A DNA stretch of 64,000 nucleotides, from positions 10,116,037-10,180,036 of the forward strand of contig OZ038532.1 in the NCBI GenBank assembly GCA_964036665.1. Direction: 5' to 3'. Source of the stretch: Gordius sp. MW1. Taxonomy: Eukaryota > Nematomorpha > Gordioida > Gordea > Gordiidae. The notes under the pieces were generated by a model. That model worked only from the letters and a program-made list of their open reading frames with translations, searched no databases and was not told where the DNA came from. Positions 3,925 to 52,759 of the stretch are shown piece after piece. The position numbers were made by a program, and so were the translations under genes. Positions within the stretch are counted from its first letter, which is position 1, and every line of letters starts with the position of its first letter.

Positions 3925-5223
3925 ATGGACATCATACCGGAGACGAATATTTCTTGCGATTACTCAAAGGAATTGAAGGATTTAATTTTGTATGATCCAA
4001 GTAATTCGATTGATGACTATTTATTTAATATCGAGCTCTTATTCAAGTTGAGATACATCACGGGAGAAAGGCGAAAAACTTTGTTACTCACTTACGTAGG
4101 CTTTAACAATTTAACAAAAATAAGAGACTATTTATATCCAAAATTAGTAGACAAAACTAATTACGATGAGATAATTAAAGCCCTTAGGAGTATATTCGCA
4201 AATAAGTTTTCTATTTATCATCATAGAGAACAATTTTATAAGGCAATTAGAAATAACGAAAGTATTATGGACTTAGTATTCGTTTGAAATTTCTTTTGAA
4301 AAACTGTAAATTTGAAAATAATCTAGACGAGGTATTAATTAATATATTTGTCCTAGGATGTAACTTACCAAGGCTTAACATTGAGTTAAGAGCTAAGTAT
4401 CCGAGTGGTAACATAAGTTTCGAAGAAACAGTTAATCTAGCACTGGCGTTAGATTCGGTAGAACACGAAACATCGAGGGCTGTTGAAGTAAACAAGGTTA
4501 AGCAGTCGTTTAATAACTTCAACAATAGAGATGTACATTTTCCTCAATTTAGCACATATAGGAAAAAGCCACCCCCTAAATGTTATCGGTGTGGGAAACC
4601 AAACCATTTAGCAAAAAATTGTAGAACGGTGATGAATACGTTATCAGCCATCAACCACGATTTTGATCAGCACACCAAAGCTCACATCAACGTAGGAATT
4701 AACGATGTGCCCTATGAAATAATCTTCGATACGGGTGGCATGTAGCGTCATTGATGAAATAACGTGGTCTCGAATCGGCAAGCCTAAACTTTACCAAGCT
4801 CCGAAGATATACGGCTATGGTAGAACGGCTATTTCAACACTTGGTAAAACCAAAGTGAAGGTGGACGTTGGTGGTGTGACAAAGTATTTAGATATTTATG
4901 TCATCAAAGGTAAAGGTTCAGCAATATTCAGTATGCCATTTATCTCAAAATTTAACTTAACTTTACCAAAGTTGGTTTGCCTGAATTCTATTATTGAAAT
5001 ACCTTCAAATGTACATGCAATTATAAAACAATTTCCCCGCGTCTTTTGCGAAAAATTAGGAAAAGTAAAAGATTTCAAAGTGACGCTCGAAATCAATGAT
5101 AACGCGATGCCAAAAATGTTTGCAGCAAAAAGAGTACCGTTTCTACTACGACAAGCTGTAGAAGATGAACTACAACGGCTACTTAACGAAGACGTCATTC
5201 AATCCTACTTTAACGCCAATTAA
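3925..5223 (+). pseudogene. Gypsy gag and protease, frameshifted
   Basis: Three overlapping frames form one broken gag-pro. 3925-4287 is the gag matrix/capsid-like start, and 4284-4745 continues gag. The second part contains a CCHC zinc knuckle (CYRCGKPNHLAKNC, 4581-4622) and a DTGG protease active-site motif where DTGA or DTGS is usual. 4735-5223 holds the rest of the protease and the linker leading to RT. The breaks near 4284 and 4740 are frameshifts. In the family, this polyprotein forms the particle and processes itself. This copy cannot make the full product. Confidence 0.88.
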
Positions 5224-5717
5224 ATGGGCTACGCCAACTGTAAATGTTAAGAAGAAATAAGGGCAGGTGCGTATATGTGGTGATTTTCGTTTAACCATAA
5301 ATCAACACTTGGCTAAAAATCAGGATATTTTACCGACTTTCAGCGACGTGGCTGAAAGAATAGCCGGAGGTAAAAACTTTTCTATCATTGACCTCAAAGA
5401 TTCCTTTTTACAACTTGAACTTGTTGAGAAATCAAGGAAATATTTAAACATATCAACGCATATAGGATATTTTCGTTATAAGAGATTACCGTTTGGGCTC
5501 ACAACAGCGCCGATTATCTTTCAGAGGTTTATGAGACAATTGGTTAATAACATACCCGGGGTGAGCGTCTTTATGGACGATGTTATAATTAGCGGTAAAA
5601 ACGAAAAGGATCACTTAAACAAATTAGTAACAGTATTAAATCTCTTTCAAACTGTTGGTTTAACAACATCTCAAACAAAAATGCAACTATTTAAAAAGTC
5701 TGTCAAATACTTAGGAC
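5224..5717 (+). pseudogene. Gypsy reverse transcriptase, N-terminal part
   Basis: The frame at 5267-5710 carries RT fingers and palm motifs: IIDLKDSF with the first catalytic aspartate, LPFGL, and FMDD as the catalytic box (Y[IVL]DD in most relatives). A stop and frameshift near 5222-5265 separate it from protease. At 5718 the RT is interrupted by a hAT-like element, and the frame resumes at 6853 in the YLGHII motif. Confidence 0.88.
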
Positions 5718-6852
5718 TAGAGAACTGCAAAGTCACTTTTTTTCAACCCGAACCCGACCCGACCCGAAATCATTTTCAAATTTTCTACCCGGACCCGACC
5801 CGACCCGAAATCATTTTCAAATTTTCTACCTGGACCCGACCCGAAATCATTTTCAAATTTTCTACCCGAACCCGACCCGACCCGAAAGCATTTTAAAAAC
5901 TTCAACCCGAACCCGACCCGAAAAATTATAAAAAAATTACTTTCGAGCGCGAAAATTGCTGTGTGTAAAATTAAATCGACTAGTAAAAGCCATAATGATT
6001 TGTATTCTTTAAAGGGGATGGTGAAAAAAAACTCATAATTATTTATCTATATTTAGTTTCCTAATATCAAGTAAACTGCTCATATGTTATAGACTTGAGA
6101 CAACTATTAACATCCATTTATTGTTATTATGAAACCATTAATATTTAGCTGATTATAATCAATATAGTAAATAAGATGAAATTTATAGTGACTGTCCAAA
6201 TGTTTTAAGTTTGAAGTGCAATTTAAGATAAATTCATTTGATATGAAACTTTAAAATAATTATAAGTTATTATAAAAAAAATTGCACATGAAACATTTAT
6301 AAAATTATAACTTACTTTTAAGTTGGCTATGTATTAAATGTAATTTAAATTAACGATGAGGATTAGCTAAAACTTCACTGGTAACACTAAAAAAATTTAA
6401 AATATAACTTTATTGAAATACTTTACCTTTTAATAGTCAAATTAAAAACAGGAGTAATTTATGTAGTTTGAATTAGTGATGAGAATTAGCTAGCACTTCA
6501 GAGTTTGGAGTTTAAAATTTAAAAAAAGAGGAAGAGAATTAAATAAATGAATGATCCAAATTAATTGTGCATTTCGATATTTAAAAACACTCTTTGCTTA
6601 GCACATAACATTAATTAAAAAAATAGGTCTCGCGTGTTTTTTACAATGTATAAACCTTGGACCCGACTCTATAAATTTGACCCGACCCGACCCGAAAGCA
6701 TTTTCAAATTTTTTATCCGGACCCGACCCGACCCGAAATCATTTTCAAATTTTCTACCCGGACCCGACCCGAAATCATTTTCAAATTTTCTACCCGAACC
6801 CGACCCGAGGTCGGGTCCGGGTCGGGTCTCGGATCACCGGTGCAGTTCTTTA
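5718..6852. mobile_element. Non-autonomous hAT-like element in gypsy RT, 1135 bp
   Basis: A perfect 8-bp duplication, CTTAGGAC, flanks it (5710-5717 and 6853-6860). Terminal inverted repeats are TAGAGAACTGCA on the left and TAAAGAACTGCA from the right. Both subterminal zones are filled with ACCCG-type direct repeats (about 5745-5930 and 6655-6825). Short frames here are translations of those repeats, not genes. Removing the element restores the gypsy RT site. The 8-bp duplication and TAGAG end fit hAT. Confidence 0.9.
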
Positions 6853-7824
6853 CTTAGGACATATAATTAATAGTGAAGGTATAACAGCGAGTGAGGATAA
6901 GGTGTTAAAGATTAAAAGTTTTAAAACACCCGAAAACAAAAAAAACTTCGTTCTTTCCTTGGGTTGGTAAACTATTTAGAAACTTTTATCCCCAAACTTC
7001 AGATAAATTGCGCTCCTTTATACAAATTAACTTCCATAAATACAAAATTAACTTTTGAAAAAGTTAAAACTATAATTTCTAACAGAAGAACTATAGTGCC
7101 TTATCAAAAAGAATTGCCTATCATAATTTCAATCGACGCGTCGACAGAGAGGCATCGGCAGCAATTTATGCGATAAATAAATTCCATCAGTATATATATG
7201 ATCGTGAATTCACAATTCAGACAGATCACCACCCTCTTATAAATATTTTTGGGACAACCCGGGATCTTAGTAAAATAACCAATAATAGGTTACTAAGATG
7301 GGCAATTAAATTACTTCAATATGATTATGATATAAAATACATCCCAGGGAAATCTAATCAGTGTGCTGATGCACTTTCTCGGCCAAAGGATTCACCTCAT
7401 AATTTAAACATAGATAATGATATACGCAGAATTAAATTACAATTAATCGATGACTTAACTTTAAATACAAAAATTATTGTAGAGGAAACAATAAAAGATA
7501 ATGTACTTAAAGAAGTTATAGAGCAATGGCAAGGCTTTTCAAATAACGATAACGTACGAAAATACCTGCAATTAAGAAATTACATTTCTTTCGAAAATAA
7601 TCTTTTATTTTATAAAGATCGACTTATAATTCCGAAAAAATTAAGGCCAGATATTTTTAAAATTTTACATGATGGTCATACGGGAATCGTGGCTATGAAG
7701 TCATTAGGGAGATACTATGTGTACTGGAATAATATTGACGTAGACATAAAAAATTACGTTAATAGTAAATATTGCCAAGAAGAACGACCAAACATTAAAA
7801 AGGTACCCCTATACGCTTGGAACG
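6853..7824 (+). pseudogene. Gypsy RT end, RNase H and integrase zinc domain
   Basis: After the hAT insertion the frame resumes with the RT C-terminus (YLGHIINSEG), a connection domain and the RNase H core. RNase H motifs include SIDAST, TDHHPL and ADALSRP. The integrase N-terminal zinc region follows (HDGH...SKYCQ). The usual CxxC pair is degenerate, with only one cysteine visible. Stops and frameshifts lie near 6969 and 7176. The frame is cut at 7824 by another insertion. Confidence 0.85.
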
Positions 7825-8960
7825 AATCATGGTTGAGGCAGCACAATCGTCACAAAAAGCAGCACAAAATTAGGTTCGTATTTTAGAGATTACCTAGCTA
7901 CCTATCGTTTGCATATTGTTACATGGTCGTGCAAGAATTTAGAAATTTTCTAGCGAAAGATAAATTGTAAGTGTAATTATATAGGCTGTACATATTTTTT
8001 AGAATTTACGAAGTCAGCAAGAAATGGTCAGGTGTTGACTTATGGGCGATACTCCTATACCAAAGCAAAGATAGGAAAAAACCCAGGAATTTATTACCAA
8101 GTAATTTAAACCTAACCCTAACCCAATAATCACATAGAAGGATTCCTCAACAAATTAAAACACATGATAAAACAATCCCTACGAGTTCATAGATCACATT
8201 AAAGCAATACAACGAGAAAGTGACTCAAACATCAAAAAGATAAATAAAGGGAAAATGATCAATCTTATATAATACATATTGTTTACTTAAATATTGTATA
8301 CATGAGAATTAATAAAATTTTGGTTCTCATTTTATGAAATCTTTCAGATATAATTGATGATGACAAATTATTAAATAATTACCTACATATAGCTAAGATA
8401 TATACTTTCACCCACTTCTGTGCAAAATGTAATATAGGCAAGGGTTAGATTTAGTAATTTATTTGATAATATGTATTTATTTATAAAATAGTATTATACA
8501 TTTTGATATACCTTATTTTGTTTTAATTAACAATTATAGTATCCTTTTATTAAGTATAATTACATATTATAATTTCACCATTTTATAAATAATTACCTAC
8601 ATATAGCTAAGATCTAAGATATATACTTTCACCCACTTCTGTGCAAAATGTAATATAGGGAAAATGTAATATAGGCAAGGGTTAGGGTTAGATTTAGTGA
8701 TTTATTTGATAATATGTATTTATTTATAAAATAGTATTATACATTTTGATATACCTTATTTTGTTTTAATTAACAATTATAGTATCCTTTTATTAAGTTT
8801 ACATATTATAATTTCACCATTTTATAATCTGATGCCCAGATTCACTTTCACCATATCAATTTTCATATGGTTTTTCATATGGTTTTCGTGACGAGAGTAA
8901 CGAAATGTGATGATCGTGACGAATTTTAGCTCCTTTTTCTGTGCTGCCTCAACCAAGTCC
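7825..8960. mobile_element. TIR element in gypsy integrase, about 1.1 kb, MULE-like duplication
   Basis: The integrase sequence CGCTTGGAACG (11 bp) occurs on both sides, at 7814-7824 and 8961-8971. Just inside are inverted ends containing TTGAGGCAGCACA. No transposase is seen. The interior has a direct duplication of about 200 bp (about 8375-8575 and 8588-8823). A target duplication of 9-11 bp is typical of Mutator-like elements, but the outermost few bases of the two ends do not match, so the boundary could be a few bases off. Confidence 0.65.
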
Positions 8961-14204: not shown

Positions 14205-15577
14205 GCTTTCCGGTCCCCCCCCCCCGGGTGAGAAAGAGAGTAAAAAATAAGAAGAGGGGCGATTCACCCCCCCCTCTCCCCGGCATCAGAAAGAGGGTAA
14301 AAAATAAGGGGGTGGGGACAAAACACCCCCCATGCCCCCCCCTCTCCCCCGCATCAGAAAGAGGGTAAAAAATTAAAGGAGGTGTAAAACACCCCCCTGC
14401 CAGCCCCATCTCCCTCGCATCAGAAAGAGGGTAAAAAATTAGGGGGGAGGGGGGCCAAACACCCCCCTGCCCCCCCCTCTCCCCCGCATCAGAAAGAGGG
14501 TAAAAAATTGGGGGGGGGGGGGGGCAAAACAGCCCCCATGCCCCCCTCTCCCCCGGATCAGAAAGAGGGTAAATAATTAGGGGGGGGGCAAAACACCCCC
14601 TATGCCCCCCTCTCTTCCACATCAAAAAGAGGGTAAAAAATTAGGGGGGGGGGGGGCAAAACACCCCCCATGCCCCCCTCTCCCTCACATCAGAAAGAGG
14701 GTAAAAAAATTAGGGGGGAGGGGGGGGGGGACAAAACACCCCCTGCCCCCTCTCCCCCACTTAAGAAAGAGGGTAAAAAATTAGGAAGGGGCAAAACACC
14801 CCCCTTCCACCCCCCTCTCCCTCGCATCAGAAAGAGGGTAAAAAATTGGGGGGGGGGGGGTGGCAAAAACCCCCCATGCCCCCCTCTCCCCCACTTAAGA
14901 AAGAGGGTAAAAAATTAGGGGGGAGGGGGGCAAAACACCCCCCTGCCCCCCCTCTCCCTCGCATCAGAAAGAGGGTACTAAATTAGGGGGGGGCAAAACA
15001 CCCCCCCATGCCCTTCTCTCCCCCACATCAGAAAGAGGGTAGAAAATTAGGGGGAGGGGGGCAAAACACCCCCCTGCCCCCCCCCCCCCCCCACATCAGA
15101 AAGAGGGTAAAAAATTAGGGGGGGGGCAAAACACCCCCCATGCCCCCCCTCTCCTCCACATCAGAAAGAGGGTAAAAAATTAGGTGTCGGGGGGCAAAAC
15201 ACCCCACTCTCCCTCGCATCAGAAAGAGGGTAAAAAAGTAGGGGGGACAGGGGGGCAATACACCCCCCATGCCCCCCGCCCTCTCCCCCACATCAGAAAG
15301 AGGGTAAAAAATTAGGTGGGGGGGGGCAAAACACCCCCCATGCCCCCCTCTCCCCCACATCAGAAAGAGGGTAAAAGATTAGGGGGGGGGCAAAACACCC
15401 CCCTCTCCCCCGCATCAGAAAGAGGGTAAAAAATTTGGGGGGGGGGCAAAACGCCCCCCTCTCCCCCGCATCAGAAAGAGGGTAAAAAATTAGGGGGGGA
15501 GGGGGCAAACACCCCACCTGCCCGCCGTTCCTCCCCAGGTGAGAAAGAGGGTAAAAAATAAGGGGGGGGGGGCAAAT
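14205..15577 (-). repeat. Right minisatellite arm of the foldback element
   Basis: About twenty units of the same minisatellite as 9586-11190 but in reverse complement (GAAAGAGGGTAAAAAATTAG between G-runs and C-runs). Together the two arms form an inverted repeat of about 1.4-1.6 kb with a 3-kb centre. Reading frames here are repeat artefacts. Confidence 0.93.
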
Positions 15578-24489: not shown

Positions 24490-25300
24490 ACTTTCCCAGG
24501 ATCACTTAGAAATCTACTTTTCTATGATAAGGTCCAAAGGAGGTTTTAATAACAATCCTTCTGCTTAGCTTATCAACTTCTGGCAGCTGTAAGGAAGGGG
24601 CACTTTGTGTGCCAGAGTCCTTAGTAATAACAACGGAAATTGTTTATTTTTGTGAAACTACGATCATTTGAGGCCAACGAAGGAATGAAGAAGATATTTT
24701 AACAAATGACGAGGACGATGAATTATTAAATATATCGCAATTACCAAATTTTTGTGACAACATAATGGTTTATATCGCTGGTTTTATTCTAGGAAAGCTA
24801 ATTGAGAAAGGTAAATTGACTTGTATTGAATGCATCTATTTTTTGTCATCATTTCTTAATAATTGTTTAAATAATAATTATCATTTAATTAATATAAAAA
24901 ATAATTTTGGTTTAATATATCCCTCTAATTTTATTATGTAAAACTACGTACCCTATCTTTAATAACTTTAAAAATAGAAATTTATTAAATAAAAAAACAT
25001 AAATTTAATAATATTAAATAATATATTGAGTCATCTAATCGGTTCTAATATTTTTAATACATTAAACAATCACCTAACTAATCAAGATTTTACACATTTA
25101 AAAATTTTATTTAATTTAATAGTTTTTAAAAATCTTAAAATTCTTTTTCATAATCATTCCCGTAATATAACTCAAAAATTAAGAATTAATATAAGAAATA
25201 AATTGAATAAAAATGTTTTATTTTTTAGGCCAATTATAGTCAATTTACCTTTCTCACTAGTTTATAATAAATTTGAACCAACGTCAATAAATTAATATTA
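24490..25300 (+). pseudogene. P/THAP9-type transposase C-terminal fragment
   Basis: The translation from about 24495 gives QDHLEIYFSMIRSKGGFNNN followed by PSA. This is the conserved C-terminal signature of P-element and THAP9 transposases (D.LE.FFS.IR..GG.NNNP). Further on are VYIAGFILGKLIEKGKLTC and, after gaps, LINIKNNFGLIYPS, which matches the end of the same family. The last motif resembles the C-terminal exon of the remnant at 18679-19826. Stops and shifts interrupt it. It shows independently that P-superfamily elements have been active in this genome. Confidence 0.75.
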
Positions 25301-25640
25301 TACATAATATAGATGGCGCTATATTTTTTAAACAAACATGATATTTATTTTAGAATGCTGTTATAGATATATACCGAATTCAATACTTTTTATTTACCTT
25401 TTTTAAGATTATTTAATTTACAAAAATTACTAATATCTATATAATCACCACTTTACCATGTACTCATCAAAATTGCAGAAAAAGAAGTACACCCTTTGTG
25501 CGTTGATAAGCAGTCTCTATGGAATATTTTTTTTAAATTGGTTTATTATGTGACTAAAACAAGCTTTAAGCTCGAAAAAAATTTTTATTGTGACACAAGT
25601 GACAAATGTCATATTCTTCAATATCTATTAAAATGAATTT
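25301..25640. other. AT-rich spacer
   Basis: No gene or repeat recognised between the P-type fragment and the inverted dispersed repeat. Confidence 0.4.
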
Positions 25641-29760: not shown

Positions 29761-30036
29761 CCCGCATTTTTATGAAACAATCAAAAGCAATTTTAATCAC
29801 AAATTTTAATTTCAAATCTTTTTTTGGATTCCTAGCCTATGACATTCTTTTTTATCATTATTATTATTATATAATTGTAGTATTTTATATCATGATCGAT
29901 CAGATATATATCAATAAACAAACTATTAGCTTAAGATAACTTAGGGTTATCAAGTGTAAATCCTAAATGATAAACAAATTTAATATTATGTAATTTAATT
30001 ACAAATTTATGGCATATTTCAAAATTTAGAAAATTT
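29761..30036. other. AT-rich spacer
   Basis: No gene or repeat recognised. Confidence 0.4.
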
Positions 30037-30629
30037 CATATCTTTAAAAAAAGGGGATATAAGATATGAATAAAAATGATTTGAAGGAAGGGGGAATTAT
30101 CATTGCTAGAATTGGGGGAAATATTGGTCCCTAAGTGTAAACCTTGTCCCCCCCAAAAGGGGGACTCACCATTTAATTCTTTCTTTAGGTCTTTTATGTA
30201 TTTTATTTATCTCCAAGAATAAATTTATTAATGAATAAAATCACGCAACTCTCGAGTATGTAAAAATCAATGATGCGTATTGATAGAAATAACAAATACG
30301 TATAAGCGCGTCGGGGGGGGGATAACATACGCGTACTAGAAATTAAATGTAAAGGAATAAAGTTCTATGTATATATTCAGTACACAGATGTTACAATCAA
30401 TTAACCTTTTGTGTCAGGGGGCATGGGGGAAAGAAAAAGTAACATACGTACCACGTATAGTGAGCGGCGGCGTTTCTTTTTATAAAAGAACAGGGGGGGG
30501 AAGATATCCTCGTATCTCCGGATACGATACCTTGCGGTTTTCCAAAAAAAAATTAGGACCAGGGGTGGATAAAAGAATAATTGATATCATGCAATCGGAT
30601 GGTTTTTATCACCAACGTTCTAATTATGG
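30037..30629 (+). repeat. Direct repeat copy 1 (about 590 bp), unidentified element
   Basis: Nearly identical to 31253-31827, at a spacing of about 1216 bp. The only difference noted is one base in an A-run. Both copies carry the same short frame (90 codons here, from 30367), ending in VDKRIIDIMQSDGFYHQRS. Copy 1 continues through GGTTTTTATCACCAACG, while copy 2 stops at GGTTTTTAT because of the retroelement insertion. This gives an empty-site reference. Confidence 0.85.
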
Positions 30630-31245
30630 GTTTACATGATATTAATAGTAACAATATCAAAAATATTATACTAACTATCCAAAAATTATTATATACGACA
30701 TGTGTATCCTTCAAAGCAATCACGTGGTCTCTTCTTTTGAAAAATTAAGTATTCATGGCCAACGGGATGTAATTATAAATACCTCATCTATGGCTTGTGG
30801 GAATACTCCTGGAATAATCCAATAATATCTTCCCCGCTCTATAGGTAACTGAATCCCGGCTCTATGAATTTCTTTTTATTGGATAATTCTGTTATTGTCG
30901 TTCTGAAATCCATCTAAAATGAGGAATTCTCAGCATTTTAATATGCCTTTACCTCCATACATGAGGAACTCTTGCCCTCATCTGAAAATTAAGGAGACTC
31001 CTGCTGCCTTAACAATTATGGATGTCTCAGACCCGACCTGAATTTTCCATGTACCAGTTTTCAATAAGTTTTTGAAGCAATTAGTCGATAATTCATGCAT
31101 TGGGTAGGGGTGATTTGTTTCGAATAACTTCTAAATCACTTTCAATCCTGTTTTCTTTACCTTGAGGAAATTTATATTTGTGCAGGATGCGATTGGGGTA
31201 TGATGAATAGGAATATACGAGGGTGGGATTTTTTTTATCTTCTGG
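30630..31245. other. Spacer between the two direct repeats
   Basis: No gene recognised. It ends in a G-rich and T-rich stretch at about 31215-31245, adjoining the TIR at 31246. Confidence 0.4.
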
Positions 31246-31825
31246 ACACCATTTTCATATCTTTAAAAAAAGGGGATATAAGATATGAATAAAAATGATT
31301 TGAAGGAAGGGGGAATTATCATTGCTAGAATTGGGGGAAATATTGGTCCCTAAGTGTAAACCTTGTCCCCCCCAAAAGGGGGACTCACCATTTAATTCTT
31401 TCTTTAGGTCTTTTATGTATTTTATTTATCTCCAAGAATAAATTTATTAATGAATAAAATCACGCAACTCTCGAGTATGTAAAAATCAATGATGCGTATT
31501 GATAGAAATAACAAATACGTATAAGCGCGTCGGGGGGGGGATAACATACGCGTACTAGAAATTAAATGTAAAGGAATAAAGTTCTATGTATATATTCAGT
31601 ACACAGATGTTACAATCAATTAACCTTTTGTGTCAGGGGGCATGGGGGAAAGAAAAAGTAACATACGTACCACGTATAGTGAGCGGCGGCGTTTCTTTTT
31701 ATAAAAGAACAGGGGGGGGAAGATATCCTCGTATCTCCGGATACGATACCTTGCGGTTTTCCAAAAAAAATTAGGACCAGGGGTGGATAAAAGAATAATT
31801 GATATCATGCAATCGGATGGTTTTT

Positions 31826-31926
31826 ATCCCCCGAGCACGTGACACGCGCACTATATAAACGCGTTACACCAACTCCATCGCATTCGCTTCTTACTTTGTT
31901 CCCACGCATTTACGCATTCTGCCCCC
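31826..31926 (+). repeat. Left 101-bp terminal repeat of the compact retroelement
   Basis: Identical to 34626-34726. It contains TATATAAA and probably the transcription start, so it works as the promoter-bearing terminal repeat. It is flanked inside and outside by C-runs. Confidence 0.93.
31852..31859 (+). promoter_or_regulatory. TATA box of the compact retroelement
   Basis: TATATAAA inside the left terminal repeat, about 120 bp upstream of the gag ATG at 31973. The same box recurs in the right repeat at 34652-34659. Confidence 0.65.
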
Positions 31927-31972
31927 CTCTTTTTACCACTCGATATTTACCTCCAAAATTTTTCCCCCCTAC

Positions 31973-32698
31973 ATGACTAAATCAGCCGGGAACCGTGGTA
32001 AGGACGGGGAAGCAACTCCACTCAGCCCTAACGGCTCCTCTTTGGGCCCTGTCAGAGCAGGGTTACCCGCTGGGGGCCCTAACGAGCTAATAGCGCAGCT
32101 GGTGGAGTTCCAGAAGGAACAAGCCAAAACTAACCAAAAGATGGCTGAAGCGAATCAGCGTCAAATAGACGCAATGCGGGAGATGCTGCAATCTTCCCTC
32201 ACTGTTATGGGCAACCTAGCCATCCGGGAAGTACCGCCAAATACTCTGCAGCCGATTACTCCCGCAACCATGCAGGTCTTGCCAGCACCGGAAATACCAA
32301 AAACACCGGCAAATGTGTATGACGATATCATAAAACATACACAAGGGCTAGACGCCCTCCTTAAAGATCCGGACCAAAGAATACAAAAGCGAGACCGACA
32401 TGAGGCCAAATATGCAATAGAAATGACAAAGGCCTGTACACCTCAAACACCTATGGAGGTTCTAACTACCCACGATAAACAGCTAAAAACGTTATGTCTG
32501 GCCATAAAGTACAACTGGGCCACCGCGATAAAGACAGACACAAGCTGGTTGGCCGAAATGGGATGGGCTAACGTCGACATTGAGAGGAGCGCCCCCAAAT
32601 CACCGAAAAAGTCGTTTTTTCGAGGCGCTGGCAGGGGCCGAGGCAGCAAGCCGGGCCGACACTTCACGAAGAACGCGGCCCCTGCCCCGCGTTCGTAA
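31973..32698 (+). CDS. Gag-like protein of the compact retroelement, 241 aa
   Basis: Intact frame from the first ATG after the left repeat. Residues 1-50 are Gly/Ser/Pro-rich. Residues 50-90 are Gln/Lys/Glu-rich (EFQKEQAKTNQKMAEANQRQ) and likely form a coiled coil for multimerisation. The C-terminus is basic and Gly/Arg-rich (FFRGAGRGRGSKPGRHFTKN), suited to RNA binding in place of a CCHC knuckle. No protease motif is seen. Naming it gag rests on position ahead of RT and this composition. No family match is recognised. It overlaps the pol frame by 119 nt. Confidence 0.75.
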   Translation: MTKSAGNRGKDGEATPLSPNGSSLGPVRAGLPAGGPNELIAQLVEFQKEQAKTNQKMAEANQRQIDAMREMLQSSLTVMGNLAIREVPPNTLQPITPATMQVLPAPEIPKTPANVYDDIIKHTQGLDALLKDPDQRIQKRDRHEAKYAIEMTKACTPQTPMEVLTTHDKQLKTLCLAIKYNWATAIKTDTSWLAEMGWANVDIERSAPKSPKKSFFRGAGRGRGSKPGRHFTKNAAPAPRS

Positions 32699-34625
32699 AC
32701 TCCTAAAACAAACGGTTAACAATTGGGGTTACGGGCCTTCGGGCGAACCGACCCTAAACGGTGGCGACAATATCGAGTCTCCCAGGTGGTGGCAACAAAT
32801 CGTAAATTTCTTAAGGGAGACTCGCCGCTTAATATTCTCGCCTCCTAAACCAACAGACGAACCGGACAATACACCACCGGATCCGCTACCACCTCGCACA
32901 TACCCAGTGCCGCCGCCGGACACTTCGGCAAGGGTAAACCCCACTGACGAGCCGCTCGATGCCGATCAAGGGTCAAGCTTAATACCATCGCTCATCGACC
33001 ACCACAAAGTCCTCTTCCGATGGGGAAAAGAGGCAGCTAGCAAGAAGCCCACAGGGCCTCTAGACATAAAAACCACGAGGCTGAAGCCTCATCCAATGAT
33101 GTCGCAGTTCACATTGGATATAGCCTTCAACGGCTTTAAACCCCCCCTGAACTTAGCCAAAATCAGGGCAAATGGTGGCTTGTTCAAGCCCAACAGGGGG
33201 GGTTGCATATCGAAAGGCAGTCCAAGCTATTATACCGCCATGAAAGAATCGGGGGTTGTTACTGAGACGCAAGCGCTCGCGATCACCTCCGCAACATTTT
33301 TCATAGCCAAGAGCAACGGGGACGCCCGAGTCATCACAGATATGTCGGAAGCCTCAAAAAACTTCCACCATCTCCCAGTGAAGTTGGCGACCATTCCGTT
33401 GACAGCAAAGCAGTTAGCAACAGCTAACTTCGCAGCCAAGATCGATCTGAAGGCTGCTTTCTTCAGTATTCCCCTCCACAAGAATTATAAACGTTATTGC
33501 GGTTACAAGTGGAGGGGAAAGGCATACCAATACAATGTCTTACCGATGGGTGCCTCGTTTTCGCCATACGTATTGCAGACTATCGTGGCAGATCTAGTCA
33601 AATCGGCAGTTACACGATGTAACTATAATGTATATCTCGACGATATACTGATCTTCGCAAAGGACGAAGACCACGTCATCACCGACCTAGGCAACATAGC
33701 CCAAATGGCGGCTGACTGGGGGCTCACCATCAATACCAGCAAATCGTCTTACACAGCAGAGACGAAAATCAAATACCTGGGCATGGTCCTAGACTTCACC
33801 ACGCACACAGTCAAGTGCACCCCTGAAACGCAACAACGCCTTCGTTACGCGGCCGATATCCTTTTCCTCTTCTTAGCCACGCCAAGGCCGCCAGAAGACT
33901 ACGTACTGCTGGAAGCTCTGGGCATCCTCAACTACTTCTACTACAACCTAACAGGGATGCCGAAGCTATTCACCACATTTTACTCCCTGTCCACCGGCAA
34001 CGGTACCAGTCACGACAGACCCGCTGCCTACAAAAAACTAGAAGGATGCTTAGCGTTGCTCACCCAAATCATCCCGCTACACAGGGAACACGACACGATC
34101 ATCTATGCAGACGCGTCAGACACCCACATCGGTATCGCATGGGGAGACGTCAAATTCTCCGTATCGTTCGAAGCAGCCGCTCAAGCTATTGGCCTCGAAT
34201 GGATCAGCACAAACCACATAACAGCTACGGAGACGCTAGCCGCCATCTATGCTTACCTGCATGCGATCCACAACGGTTTCCGCTACCCGAAGGTGTTTAC
34301 GGATTCCATGACGGCATATTTCGTACTCCGAAAAGGTGGCTCAAATTCACCTATAGTAGAAAGAATAATAGCGTACTTCGTCGCATCATATGACGCCTCT
34401 CACCTATTGAGGTTACATTTCAACTTAAGATGGGTATCGACAGCCGAAAACCCGGCAGACGAACCGTCACGTATTTTCCTGCCTCTCACACGCTATGCCG
34501 TACCTGAGCAGCTTCCCAACACGGAGGATCTAGATCTATTAAACATAGGAAACGACGAGAGCGAAATAGACTTGGGTTTCTGGGAAAGCGAAATCCTGGA
34601 GAGCGAGGAGGAGAACCGAGCTTAA
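32580..34625 (+). CDS. Reverse transcriptase/RNase H polyprotein, 681 codons open
   Basis: The frame is +1 relative to gag and open from a TTG within the gag end, so a +1 frameshift or re-initiation is implied. Residues 1-165 are a Pro-rich spacer. The RT spans about 165-410: VITDMSEASKNFHH, AKIDLKAAFFSIP (catalytic D), LPMGASFSPY and YLDDILIFA at 352-360, then IKYLGMVLDF. RNase H is at about 505-630 with a plausible D-E-D-D set: IIYADAS, TETLAAIYA, VFTDSMTA and NPADEPSR. The last 45 residues are acidic (ESEILESEEENRA). All visible catalytic residues are present. Nothing downstream encodes integration functions. The stop TAA abuts the right repeat. Confidence 0.9.
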   Translation: MRGAPPNHRKSRFFEALAGAEAASRADTSRRTRPLPRVRKLLKQTVNNWGYGPSGEPTLNGGDNIESPRWWQQIVNFLRETRRLIFSPPKPTDEPDNTPPDPLPPRTYPVPPPDTSARVNPTDEPLDADQGSSLIPSLIDHHKVLFRWGKEAASKKPTGPLDIKTTRLKPHPMMSQFTLDIAFNGFKPPLNLAKIRANGGLFKPNRGGCISKGSPSYYTAMKESGVVTETQALAITSATFFIAKSNGDARVITDMSEASKNFHHLPVKLATIPLTAKQLATANFAAKIDLKAAFFSIPLHKNYKRYCGYKWRGKAYQYNVLPMGASFSPYVLQTIVADLVKSAVTRCNYNVYLDDILIFAKDEDHVITDLGNIAQMAADWGLTINTSKSSYTAETKIKYLGMVLDFTTHTVKCTPETQQRLRYAADILFLFLATPRPPEDYVLLEALGILNYFYYNLTGMPKLFTTFYSLSTGNGTSHDRPAAYKKLEGCLALLTQIIPLHREHDTIIYADASDTHIGIAWGDVKFSVSFEAAAQAIGLEWISTNHITATETLAAIYAYLHAIHNGFRYPKVFTDSMTAYFVLRKGGSNSPIVERIIAYFVASYDASHLLRLHFNLRWVSTAENPADEPSRIFLPLTRYAVPEQLPNTEDLDLLNIGNDESEIDLGFWESEILESEEENRA

Positions 34626-34726
34626 ATCCCCCGAGCACGTGACACGCGCACTATATAAACGCGTTACACCAACTCCATCGCATTCGCTTCTTACTTTGTT
34701 CCCACGCATTTACGCATTCTGCCCCC
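34626..34726 (+). repeat. Right 101-bp terminal repeat of the compact retroelement
   Basis: Identical to the left copy. It immediately follows the pol stop codon. Downstream comes ACCAGGCTGCTCTGATTG and then a polyadenylation signal, so the transcript would carry the 3' part of this repeat, matching its 5' end. Confidence 0.93.
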
Positions 34727-34744
34727 ACCAGGCTGCTCTGATTG

Positions 34745-34750
34745 AATAAA
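34745..34750 (+). terminator. Polyadenylation signal of the compact retroelement
   Basis: AATAAA 19 bp after the right repeat, the first canonical signal after the pol stop. It may be adopted from flanking DNA. Confidence 0.5.
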
Positions 34751-34871
34751 CAAATTTAAATCAACAATCGCAAGAATAGTAATTGGATAATACACAAAAA
34801 CATAAAAAATATCCAATTCCCAAAATCAGAAAATCCTGAATAGTGTTTAGTTGTCTAACATTTTCGGCAGA

Positions 34872-35020: not shown

Positions 35021-35468
35021 AAATATTTATAAACCAATCCCAATGATTTGAAGAAAACATTAAATCTATAAAATTCAGACACGAAGTCAGAAAAATATAC
35101 AAAAAAAATCTCAACATAAACTATGCCTCAGCCTTAAAGTAAAACATCTAGAAATCAAAACTTTAGCCCACAGATCTATTAGTATCTTATCTATGCGTTG
35201 TCTAGTGAAAACGTTCCTCTCAATCTAAACCAAGGGATGGTCACATATAATCTGTCAACCATCCCACATCCAGTATCAAACCATACCACTTTTCAACGTC
35301 CAGTATCAAACAAAATCACTTTCCAGACTACAACAGATATTTTTCTTTGTAAAGAGGAAGGAATATTTCCCCCAATTCTAGCAATGATAATTCCCCCTTC
35401 CTTCAAATCATTTTTATTCATATCTTATATCCCCTTTTTTTAAAGATATGAAAATGGTGTCAGAAGTG

Positions 35469-43104: not shown

Positions 43105-43378
43105 CTGGGAAATGTCCGATATTTTTAAAACGAAAAGGTATTTTAAAAATTTGAAAAAGCTATTTTACCCCTGGCCGCCCTGGGCATCTACGGCTAAATT
43201 TTCGCGCGAATCGGGCCGGTATCAGAGTTTAGCCCTTTTTTAAAACAAAATGTCCGATATTTTCAAAACTAAAAGGAATTTTAGGAATCTGAAAAAGCTA
43301 TTTTACCCCTGGCCTCCCTGGGCATCTATGGCTAAATTTTCGCGCGAATCGGGCCGGTAGTTTTAGAATTTAGCCTTT
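43105..43378 (+). repeat. Dispersed 150-bp repeat, copies 2 and 3 in tandem
   Basis: Two head-to-tail copies (about 43109-43248 and 43249-43378) of the repeat at 27385-27540, each with GAAATGTCCGATATTTT and TTTTACCCCTGGCC. Confidence 0.82.
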
Positions 43379-43393
43379 ATCCACATACACACA

Positions 43394-44111
43394 ACATACA
43401 TACATACATACATACATACATACATACATACATACATACATACATACATACATACATACATACATACATACATACATACATACATACATACATACATACA
43501 TACATACATACATACATACATACATACATACATACATACATACATACATACATACATACATACATACATACATACATACATACATACATACATACATACA
43601 TACATACATACATACATACATACATACATACATACATACATACATACATACATACATACATACATACATACATACATACATACATACATACATACATACA
43701 TACATACATACATACATACATACATACATACATACATACATACATACATACATACATACATACATACATACATACATACATACATACATACATACATACA
43801 TACATACATACATACATACATACATACATACATACATACATACATACATACATACATACATACATACATACATACATACATACATACATACATACATACA
43901 TACATACATACATACATACATACATACATACATACATACATACATACATACATACATACATACATACATACATACATACATACATACATACATACATACA
44001 TACATACATACATACATACATACATACATACATACATACATACATACATACATACATACATACATACATACATACATACATACATACATACATACATACA
44101 TACATACATAC
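43394..44111. repeat. (CATA)n microsatellite, about 718 bp
   Basis: An essentially perfect tetranucleotide run of about 179 units. The long minus-strand frames of Met-Tyr-Val-Cys repeats are created by it and are not genes. Confidence 0.98.
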
Positions 44112-44464
44112 ACTTTACTTTATATATATAGATTTTCGTATTAAACGGTGTAGCAATCATTAACACACTATCTGAATAAGAATAACTCTAAAACTGAAGA
44201 GCACAACATACATCTAAAATATTAGCTAAAATTACACTTACTAAATCTAAAATTAATTATTTTTTTAATCCCTGGCCTCTCTATTATATAGTGGTTGTAT
44301 AGGCATATAAAATTTCTCATTGTCTTTAAATTTGAGCAATATCATTAGCAGCCTTATTTTTTTCAAACTAGATATATCCGAAATCCTCTATATCTGTAAG
44401 AGTAGGGACATATTTTGTTGAAGTTGAACTTTTTAATTATATAATATGAGATATAAGTGAAAAA
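44112..44464. other. AT-rich spacer
   Basis: No gene or repeat recognised. Confidence 0.4.
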
Positions 44465-51900: not shown

Positions 51901-52759
51901 AGTATATACGTTTATAAATTTTCTATATATCATTTTATTCTGTCCATCAAAAAAATGGCATAACACCCAAGTCAGCAAATTGATAAATGGGTTTAATAGA
52001 CATGTTCTATTTAATGAGTTAGTTTGGTATTTTTTAAAAATCCAACCTACAGGTAAAACCTCAAATTAGATGAAAGAAAATCAATAAAGTCAAATCAAAT
52101 TATAACGATTTTTATCGAGGATAAGAAGATTTTGACAGTGACAAAAACATTTTTAATAAATATTCCTGATAAAAAATATAATAAAGATCTAAGACAATGT
52201 TTTCTTTTAAATTGTGAAATGACATTTTTGCTTTGTATAATACAAAACTCATTTAACGCAGATTTTGAAGTCGACCACGAGAATGGCTTGCAAATGTCAC
52301 GGCGTTTCGGGTTCGTGTTCGGCTAAGATTTGTTGGAAAAAGTTGCCCAGTTTTCGTGTCCTAAGCAGCAGAATGATGGAAAAATATGACGGAGCTATTC
52401 TAGTCGACAAAGGGTTTTTTGGTGCAAAGAAGAGTGCAGTCGCAGTTGAAAAACAAAAATATATTAACAAAGAAAAATCTTTTTGGGTCACACCTACCAA
52501 AAGGCACTTAATATATTTTGAAGAGTCGCCAGATTTTTGTAATGCAAATCTTGAGATTGGATCAAGAGGAACTCGAGACCGTACATGTCAACCGAATGCT
52601 TTAAAAATGGACGCCTGCGACCTATTATGCTGCGATCGGGGCTACGTCGAAAAAAACGAAACGCGCGTTAAAAGAGATTGCAGATGTTCCTTTAAATGGT
52701 GTTGCAGGGTTGAATGTCAAGCCTGCACAACTCACACCACGAATTATTATTGTAATTGA
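48955..52759 (+). CDS. Wnt: Wnt-family secreted ligand, 6 coding exons, about 483 aa
   Basis: Exons: 48955-49064, 49152-49336, 49784-49963, 51298-51555 (or 51570), 51681-51901 and 52262-52759. All are GT-AG and in phase. The start encodes a hydrophobic signal peptide (LVFITLCFYC). Wnt hallmarks in order: ECKYQFRHRRWDCP, EKAFVYAITASALSYDLTRA, GGCSDDLKYGQRVSK, CKCHGVSGSCSAKICW (the acylation hairpin with its serine), LIYFEESPDFC, GTRDRTCQPNA, LLCCDRGY and FKWCCRVEC...C near the end. Length exceeds the usual 350-400 aa because of a polar insert of about 75-80 residues before WVRGGCSDD. The subfamily is not resolved. The acceptor of exon 2 (AAAG) is the least certain junction. Secreted, acting on Frizzled receptors. 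Confidence 0.93.
50179..50662. mobile_element. Non-autonomous hAT-like element in Wnt intron 3, 484 bp
   Basis: Ends CAGGGGTTTG and, inverted, CAGGGGTTTG. The flanks TCCGCCAC and CCCGCCAC (50171-50178 and 50663-50670) agree at 7 of 8 bases. Subterminal GGGTTCGGGTT repeats on both sides recall the ACCCG repeats of 5718-6852. A degenerate CCCGA-rich stretch at 51090-51220 may be a further fragment. Confidence 0.82.

Follow-up and report, generated by a model that had tools for sequence, protein, structure and literature searches.

Retroelements whose reverse transcriptase (RT) is of the long terminal repeat (LTR) type are usually regarded as dependent on an integrase or a recombinase. Among the closest described systems, DIRS1-like elements are reported to be without target duplications (PMC3266345), and TATE elements to lie within telomere repeats as tandem clusters (PMC6681497). 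HeT-A is described as lying with its 5′ end towards the telomere and its 3′ end inward, and as not needing an endonuclease (PMC4700185). Plant endogenous pararetroviruses reportedly occur as tandem and rearranged copies and have no integrase, and the capture of retroelement sequences at DNA breaks is likewise reported for other systems. Here, a compact retroelement of Gordius sp. MW1 is described, which lies at 31826-34726 of a stretch of 64,000 nucleotides (nt), hereafter the window (assembly GCA_964036665.1, contig OZ038532.1, positions 10,116,037 to 10,180,036 of the forward strand). On balance, it probably represents a lineage of LTR/DIRS-type retroelements without an integration enzyme, which inserts by capture at DNA breaks or chromosome ends.

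The window copy carries identical 101-nt direct repeats at 31826-31926 and 34626-34726. Between them, on the + strand, lie a gag-like frame (31973-32698, 241 amino acids) and, overlapping it in a different reading frame, an RT/ribonuclease H (RNase H) frame (32580-34625, 681 amino acids; open from 32532, with 32580 as the first listed start). The first-pass annotation had read these two frames as the whole content of the element, and the coordinates and Pfam agree: RVT_1 is detected in the 681-residue protein (2.9e-26), the YLDD motif of the RT is encoded at about 33633-33644, and everything else in both frames stays below threshold. Since the RT/RNase H stop codon directly abuts the right repeat, there is no room for a further gene. 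By reading, the acidic residues of RNase H are kept in five of six aligned proteins, with one residue lost in the copy L028. The predicted model of the gag-like protein contains a long helix, a small helical domain and an Arg/Gly-rich end (mean predicted local distance difference test score of 65), and its fold is too weak for a capsid to be named. Neither an integrase nor a protease is found in the frames, where Pfam gives RVT_1 only, and the near-full copies have no space for either; no endonuclease of the element’s own (APE, RLE or GIY-YIG) is detected by Pfam in the window frames or in the RTs of two more families. By reading, there is no room for a primer-binding site between the left repeat and gag. 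Inverted terminal repeats and split direct repeats are absent from the element, whose repeats are ordinary direct ones accompanied by one tail.

The evidence supports the absence of an integration gene as a trait of the whole lineage and not as a loss peculiar to the window copy. A search of 211.8 Mb (an assembly of 12 contigs) with the element listed 70 matches from 40 of 139 candidates scored, a lower bound, and at least 14 of these matches, the window copy counted, align to 2,700 or more bases of the 2,901-base query. No near-full copy among the 14 spans more than 2,901 genome bases, and an integrase or recombinase therefore cannot fit in as well; the longer copies bearing such a gene, which the first-pass annotation had named as a point to check, do not occur among them, and an origin of the window copy as an integrase-deleted derivative is ruled out (0/14). 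An assembly artefact is excluded as the source of the repeats, as repeat pairs recur at independent loci. The boundaries of the element had been read less well. The identity over 101 nt stands, but the right repeat is not terminal, because in other copies the full repeat measures about 131-136 nt, extending 30-35 nt beyond the 101 nt, and about 127 nt of tail lie beyond it: an AT-rich region containing AATAAA, a tandem pair of hairpins and a short end that varies, for example ATTGATTG or ATTTAATAAT. This tail is single, without a second copy inside the element, and no poly(A) end is seen in the tails listed. The anatomy of the element is thus repeat, gag, RT/RNase H, repeat and two-hairpin tail. 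The window copy, which had looked intact, is 3′-truncated inside its right repeat: its left repeat (31826-31961, +; about 136 nt in register with full copies) starts at a C-run, its right repeat (34626-34726, +) ends after 101 nt with the remainder and the tail absent, and position 34726 is not a natural end.

A tail survey gave 55 pattern sites, with 40 of 82 candidates scored, and 20 tail loci were fetched. Three of these are satellites built of units about 475 nt long; the element repeat stands directly upstream of the tail in 15 of the 17 non-satellite loci (BLAST), a decayed element repeat is visible by eye at L039, and none is present at L038. As an observation in its own right, the arrays L041-L043 (C1:22967470-22978006 and C4:20349642-20352087) consist of a satellite of about 475-nt units formed from the element repeat, the tail and a body piece, partly inverted. 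At gathering scores, Rfam gave no match in L012, L022 or the window, so that a known structured RNA or ribozyme is unsupported.

This plan is found again in three families, with RT identities of 32-47% to the window copy, and the copies read carry gag and RT/RNase H only. RT identity to the window copy is 93% for L012, 69% for both L022 and L028, 47% for L049, a third family taken from contig C7, and 32% for family B (P0019/P0020), which sits among the copies of an array on contig C8. The tails differ in sequence between families, yet each folds as two tandem hairpins: the folding z-scores of three first-group tails are -8.1, -5.8 and -6.4, that of the L049 tail is -5.3 and that of the family B tail -7.5. 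Covariation is weak across nine first-group tails, in which 2 of 22 pairs changed on both sides; paired cells make up 96% in these tails versus 38-60% with shifted partners and versus 95% after shuffling of the letters between the sequences (79 of 500 shuffles reach 96%). The RT frames are under strong constraint: of 15 pairs, 6 gave a finite dS, which exceeds 1.4 in three of them, and the dN/dS ratios of these six are 0.045-0.107. A genome search with the L049 RT (64 of 2,231 candidates scored) listed 69 matches, and at least 20 of them, the window’s family included, are free of stop codons over at least 600 of 696 residues. Two further arrangements were recorded: a tandem array of family B with a period of 2,857 nt, followed by two inverted copies (C7:19615582-19631974), and four RT copies spaced at about 8.9 kb (C6:19309962-19338604), which hints that the element is part of a larger unit that is itself repeated.

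Relatives were sought among 5.8 billion proteins, with 7,997 candidates scored in each of two runs, one with a single protein and one with a profile; the DIRS and Ty3 labels of the matches are our own reading of their domains. Among the candidates scored, P0001, whose RT is combined with a Dam domain, matches best (1.5e-15 with the single protein, 7.6e-25 with the profile), followed by P0003 and P0004, and from 1.8e-16 Ty3-type proteins are mixed with DIRS-like ones. A plan consisting of gag and RT/RNase H only was found in none of the 26 listed protein matches, as judged by Pfam domains and length. The best match among solved structures is the Ty3 RT (1.6e-20), and no match was obtained in phage records by tblastn. 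In maximum-likelihood trees of 24 rows (RT) and 22 rows (RT/RNase H), with six DIRS-like and twelve Ty3-like rows, the lineage forms one branch with 100/100 support and stems of 2.9 (RT) and 2.2 (RT/RNase H) changes per site; the trees are unrooted, contain no Ngaro, PAT, VIPER, caulimovirid or hepadnavirid rows, and resolve three separate groups without giving sisterhood. By sequence, the RT thus forms its own deep branch near DIRS and Ty3, in line with a new lineage related to DIRS, one of the options that the first-pass annotation had named. In a search of 5.39 million open papers (few subscription papers and no preprints included), no integrase-less LTR/DIRS lineage with a hairpin tail was recognised, and the lineage is apparently undescribed. 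The genome was also searched for a tyrosine recombinase: PF00589 gave no candidate in a search whose 14 controls were all prokaryotic, and the DIRS recombinase of P0003 gave none in a search run without a control.

The left ends of the copies are of two kinds, which bear on how the element may be copied. The first kind lies at the C-run or within about 12 nt of it (e.g., L009, L020, L022, L028, L044 and the tandem joints). The second lies at TCTTTTTTC/TTTCTTAC, 35-40 nt past the TATA box (L048, L023 and L026; L031 by reading), and looks like an RNA 5′ end. L016 is intermediate between both kinds, L049 begins 48 nt past the TATA box, and other copies are truncated in the body. The TATA box itself, correctly noted before, was read in the window as TATATAAA at 31852-31859 (+); the RNA of the window copy presumably starts near 31887, about 35 nt past this box, if the left ends of the other copies are taken as a guide. 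Directly 5′ of the right repeat, a purine-rich stretch (34590-34625, +) resembles a polypurine tract and may act as one. Such a stretch precedes the C-run in 10 of 10 joints from eight loci, where the best 20-mer within 40 nt is 80-90% purine, a level that 0.04-1.9% of body windows reach; at the same joints, the 25 nt directly 5′ of the C-run are 72-88% purine, which 0.08-4.9% of body windows reach. Together with the two classes of left end, this stretch would fit a plus strand primed there and an LTR-like transfer of strands from one repeat to the other.

Empty sites were sought at seven loci, and the comparison was informative at three of them (L031, L020 and the window), ambiguous at L044 and undecided at L025. 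The window copy joins two unrelated broken repeats, with one to four letters shared at the joints. Its left flank, repeat A (31253-31827, strand not assigned), is broken off at the element and recurs upstream at about 30034-30613 and at C2:3394043, continuing differently past the break point; its right flank, repeat B (34727-34849, strand not assigned), is broken off likewise, with 12 identical copies listed, the window’s own counted, of which four others were read. There is accordingly no target duplication at the window copy, as had been stated from its flanks. L031 interrupts a high-copy repeat with an open frame, in which an endonuclease of a long interspersed nuclear element (LINE) is recognised by eye and to which Pfam gives no match. 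Among 37 paralogues spanning both of its flanks, the length exceeds that of the joined flanks by 32-39 nt in 36 and falls 10 nt short of it in one, which indicates that about 38 nt of the target were lost and none duplicated. L025 is the middle of a palindromic repeat whose spanning paralogues are both longer and shorter than the joined flanks, and no empty site for L023 or L028 was found among 40 scored of 2,326 candidates. Inverted duplicates surround the insertion at L029 (at least 416 nt at 99.3%) and L036 (495 nt at 99.8%, the left inverted arm lying about 1 kb from the element piece). At L038, the left flank carries an RT frame (RVT_1, 2.1e-19) and the right flank a GIY-YIG domain (3.5e-5), Penelope-like by reading. 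In arrays, the tail end is joined to the next C-run (L012, L013 and L010) or repeats are shared (L022), and inverted joints are of several kinds (L010, L011, L015, L017-L019 and L021). Across the joints examined, no constant length of target duplication was found.

One copy, L049, directly abuts a CCCTAA array, with its promoter part missing and its tail facing a 31-nt satellite. CCCTAA is telomeric in the C7 samples at 15001, 20001 and 24800-25436, and by eye the same satellite lies just inside the telomere on the left of C8 and near the telomere on the right of C7. Because the satellite adjoins telomeres on these two contigs, the L049 junction looks like a border between telomere and subtelomere. 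C7:1-240 and C7:12001-12240 are not telomeric, so that the outer piece may be misplaced or the CCCTAA array may be internal. Telomere repeats were found at 12 of the 16 contig tips read, and the right border of C7, the sole other border read, shows a GTAT microsatellite and no element in the approximately 190 nt read. Independently of the element, the telomere repeats within C7:1-25436, of which the first 12 kb are not telomeric where sampled, point to a possible scaffolding error.

We infer break capture because fixed ends of the element are combined with an undefined target, a target deletion, inverted flanks, concatemers and a telomere joint. In the proposed course of events, the RNA would run from about 35 nt past the TATA box to just after the second hairpin, and the element’s own RT would begin the minus strand at or beyond the hairpin tail. 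Where copying is halted at the RNA 5′ end, a copy with a short, promoterless left repeat would result; where a plus strand is made from the purine stretch and the repeats pair, in the manner of LTR strand transfer, the promoter would be restored and the left end would lie at the C-run. The DNA would then enter chromosomes at breaks or exposed ends, either joined to them by the host's end-joining machinery or copied from a broken 3′ end serving as primer, and several DNAs joined together would give direct and inverted arrays. A bolder version, which we hold only tentatively, is that these elements form a separate retroelement order that unites an LTR-type RT/RNase H, LTR-like restoration of the promoter and a minus-strand start at the two-hairpin tail on broken or telomeric ends, and that has lived long on breaks with no integration enzyme, own or borrowed.

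Several observations weigh against break capture. At L044, which is ambiguous, the length of the spanning paralogues, compared with the joined flanks, varies between 3 nt less and 22 nt more, with extra bases in two of three aligned paralogues and most of the stretch missing from the third, and a 4-nt CAAC may be either a duplication or filler. At L020, six of six spanning paralogues fall 21-22 nt short of the joined flanks; the surplus letters are a C-run plus ACT, two letters of the tail and a repeated AAGCCC, the last a possible 6-nt target duplication. A loose scan of 10 copies for duplications gave a mean longest match of 4.2 nt versus 3.3 in 90 mismatched pairs, with matches of 5-7 nt in 4 of 10 copies versus 9 of 90 mismatched pairs; the empty site of L031, which is among these four, rules its match out. 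L020 and these matches make some staggered cutting possible. Short variable ends such as ATTGATTG resemble LINE ends, and a preference for telomeres cannot be shown from a single case.

The main rival to break capture is an element that travels as a passenger of a LINE or Penelope-like element, whose RT and nuclease would recognise the two-hairpin tail with its short ATTG-type end and insert the RNA by target-primed reverse transcription, in the manner of a short interspersed element. The defined hairpin tail with short variable 3′ ends, left ends at the presumed RNA start, 5′-truncated copies and the presence of LINE-like and Penelope-like frames in the genome all suit such an origin. On the other hand, no LINE with this tail occurs among the 17 non-satellite tail loci fetched, most of which have the element’s own repeat upstream as given above; at L038 the upstream RT frame is present, but no LINE end sharing the tail is shown there, and the target deletion and inverted flanks are unlike an ordinary target-primed insertion. 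We therefore regard this origin as unlikely, though deserving of attention. Somewhat less probable still is an endogenised, non-integrating reverse-transcribing virus or episome of the pararetrovirus type, DNA forms of which would have entered chromosomes by accident: it would account for concatemers and rearranged copies without an integrase, as is described for endogenous pararetroviruses of plants, whereas the two fixed ends, the 3′ tail outside the repeat, the promoterless left ends, the long-term diversity of families in one genome and the absence of further genes speak against it, and a search of viral contigs gave 47 pattern matches, none confirmed. Insertion in trans, with another element supplying its integrase or tyrosine recombinase, which was among the options of the first-pass annotation, is improbable, since the DIRS-type RTs closest among the protein candidates scored, a decayed Ty3-like element within the window and the possible 6-nt duplication at L020 are outweighed by the absence of recombinase candidates (PF00589 and that of P0003, within the controls given above), of inverted or split repeats and of a constant duplication, and by a tail that lies outside the repeat.

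If break capture holds, LTR-type strand transfer would be joined to end-primed copying, and each copy would record where a chromosome once broke. A lineage with three or more deep families in one genome, intact frames, strong selection on the RT and no integration enzyme would show that break capture can sustain an element over the long term, and the novelty would lie in a lineage with nothing but break capture to rely on.

Other features of the window are recorded for completeness. The element, with its flanks, lies between inverted repeats of 107 nt, 97% complementary, at 31245-31351 and 35355-35461; the left one occurs again upstream, near 30034, and the pair probably represents the ends of another repeat. 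By reading, the decayed Ty3-like element (4257-7886) has pieces of a zinc-knuckle gag, RT and RNase H in separate frames. A long microsatellite at 43336-44187 gives His-Thr-Tyr-Ile and Met-Tyr-Val-Cys repeat frames on both strands, and an exon of a Wnt gene, a sign of an animal host, lies at 52241-52756 (PF00110, 2.6e-51).

Of the known systems, the order DIRS (DIRS1-like, PAT, Ngaro, VIPER/TATE) provides the nearest RT/RNase H by profile among the candidates scored (P0001); the element differs from this order in the absence of a tyrosine recombinase, of a methyltransferase and of inverted or split repeats, and in having a hairpin tail past the right repeat and a deep branch of its own. With Ty3/Gypsy elements, it shares an LTR-type RT/RNase H, direct repeats with a promoter and a purine-rich stretch before the right repeat, but it is without a protease, an integrase and room for a primer-binding site, its right repeat is not terminal, and no constant target duplication is found. 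L049 is like HeT-A/TART and other end-attaching retrotransposons in its orientation at the telomere, in one case; HeT-A and TART are non-LTR elements, whereas the RT described here carries RNase H and groups among LTR/DIRS types. From plant endogenous pararetroviruses, the element is set apart by its animal host, its two genes and its fixed ends with a hairpin tail.

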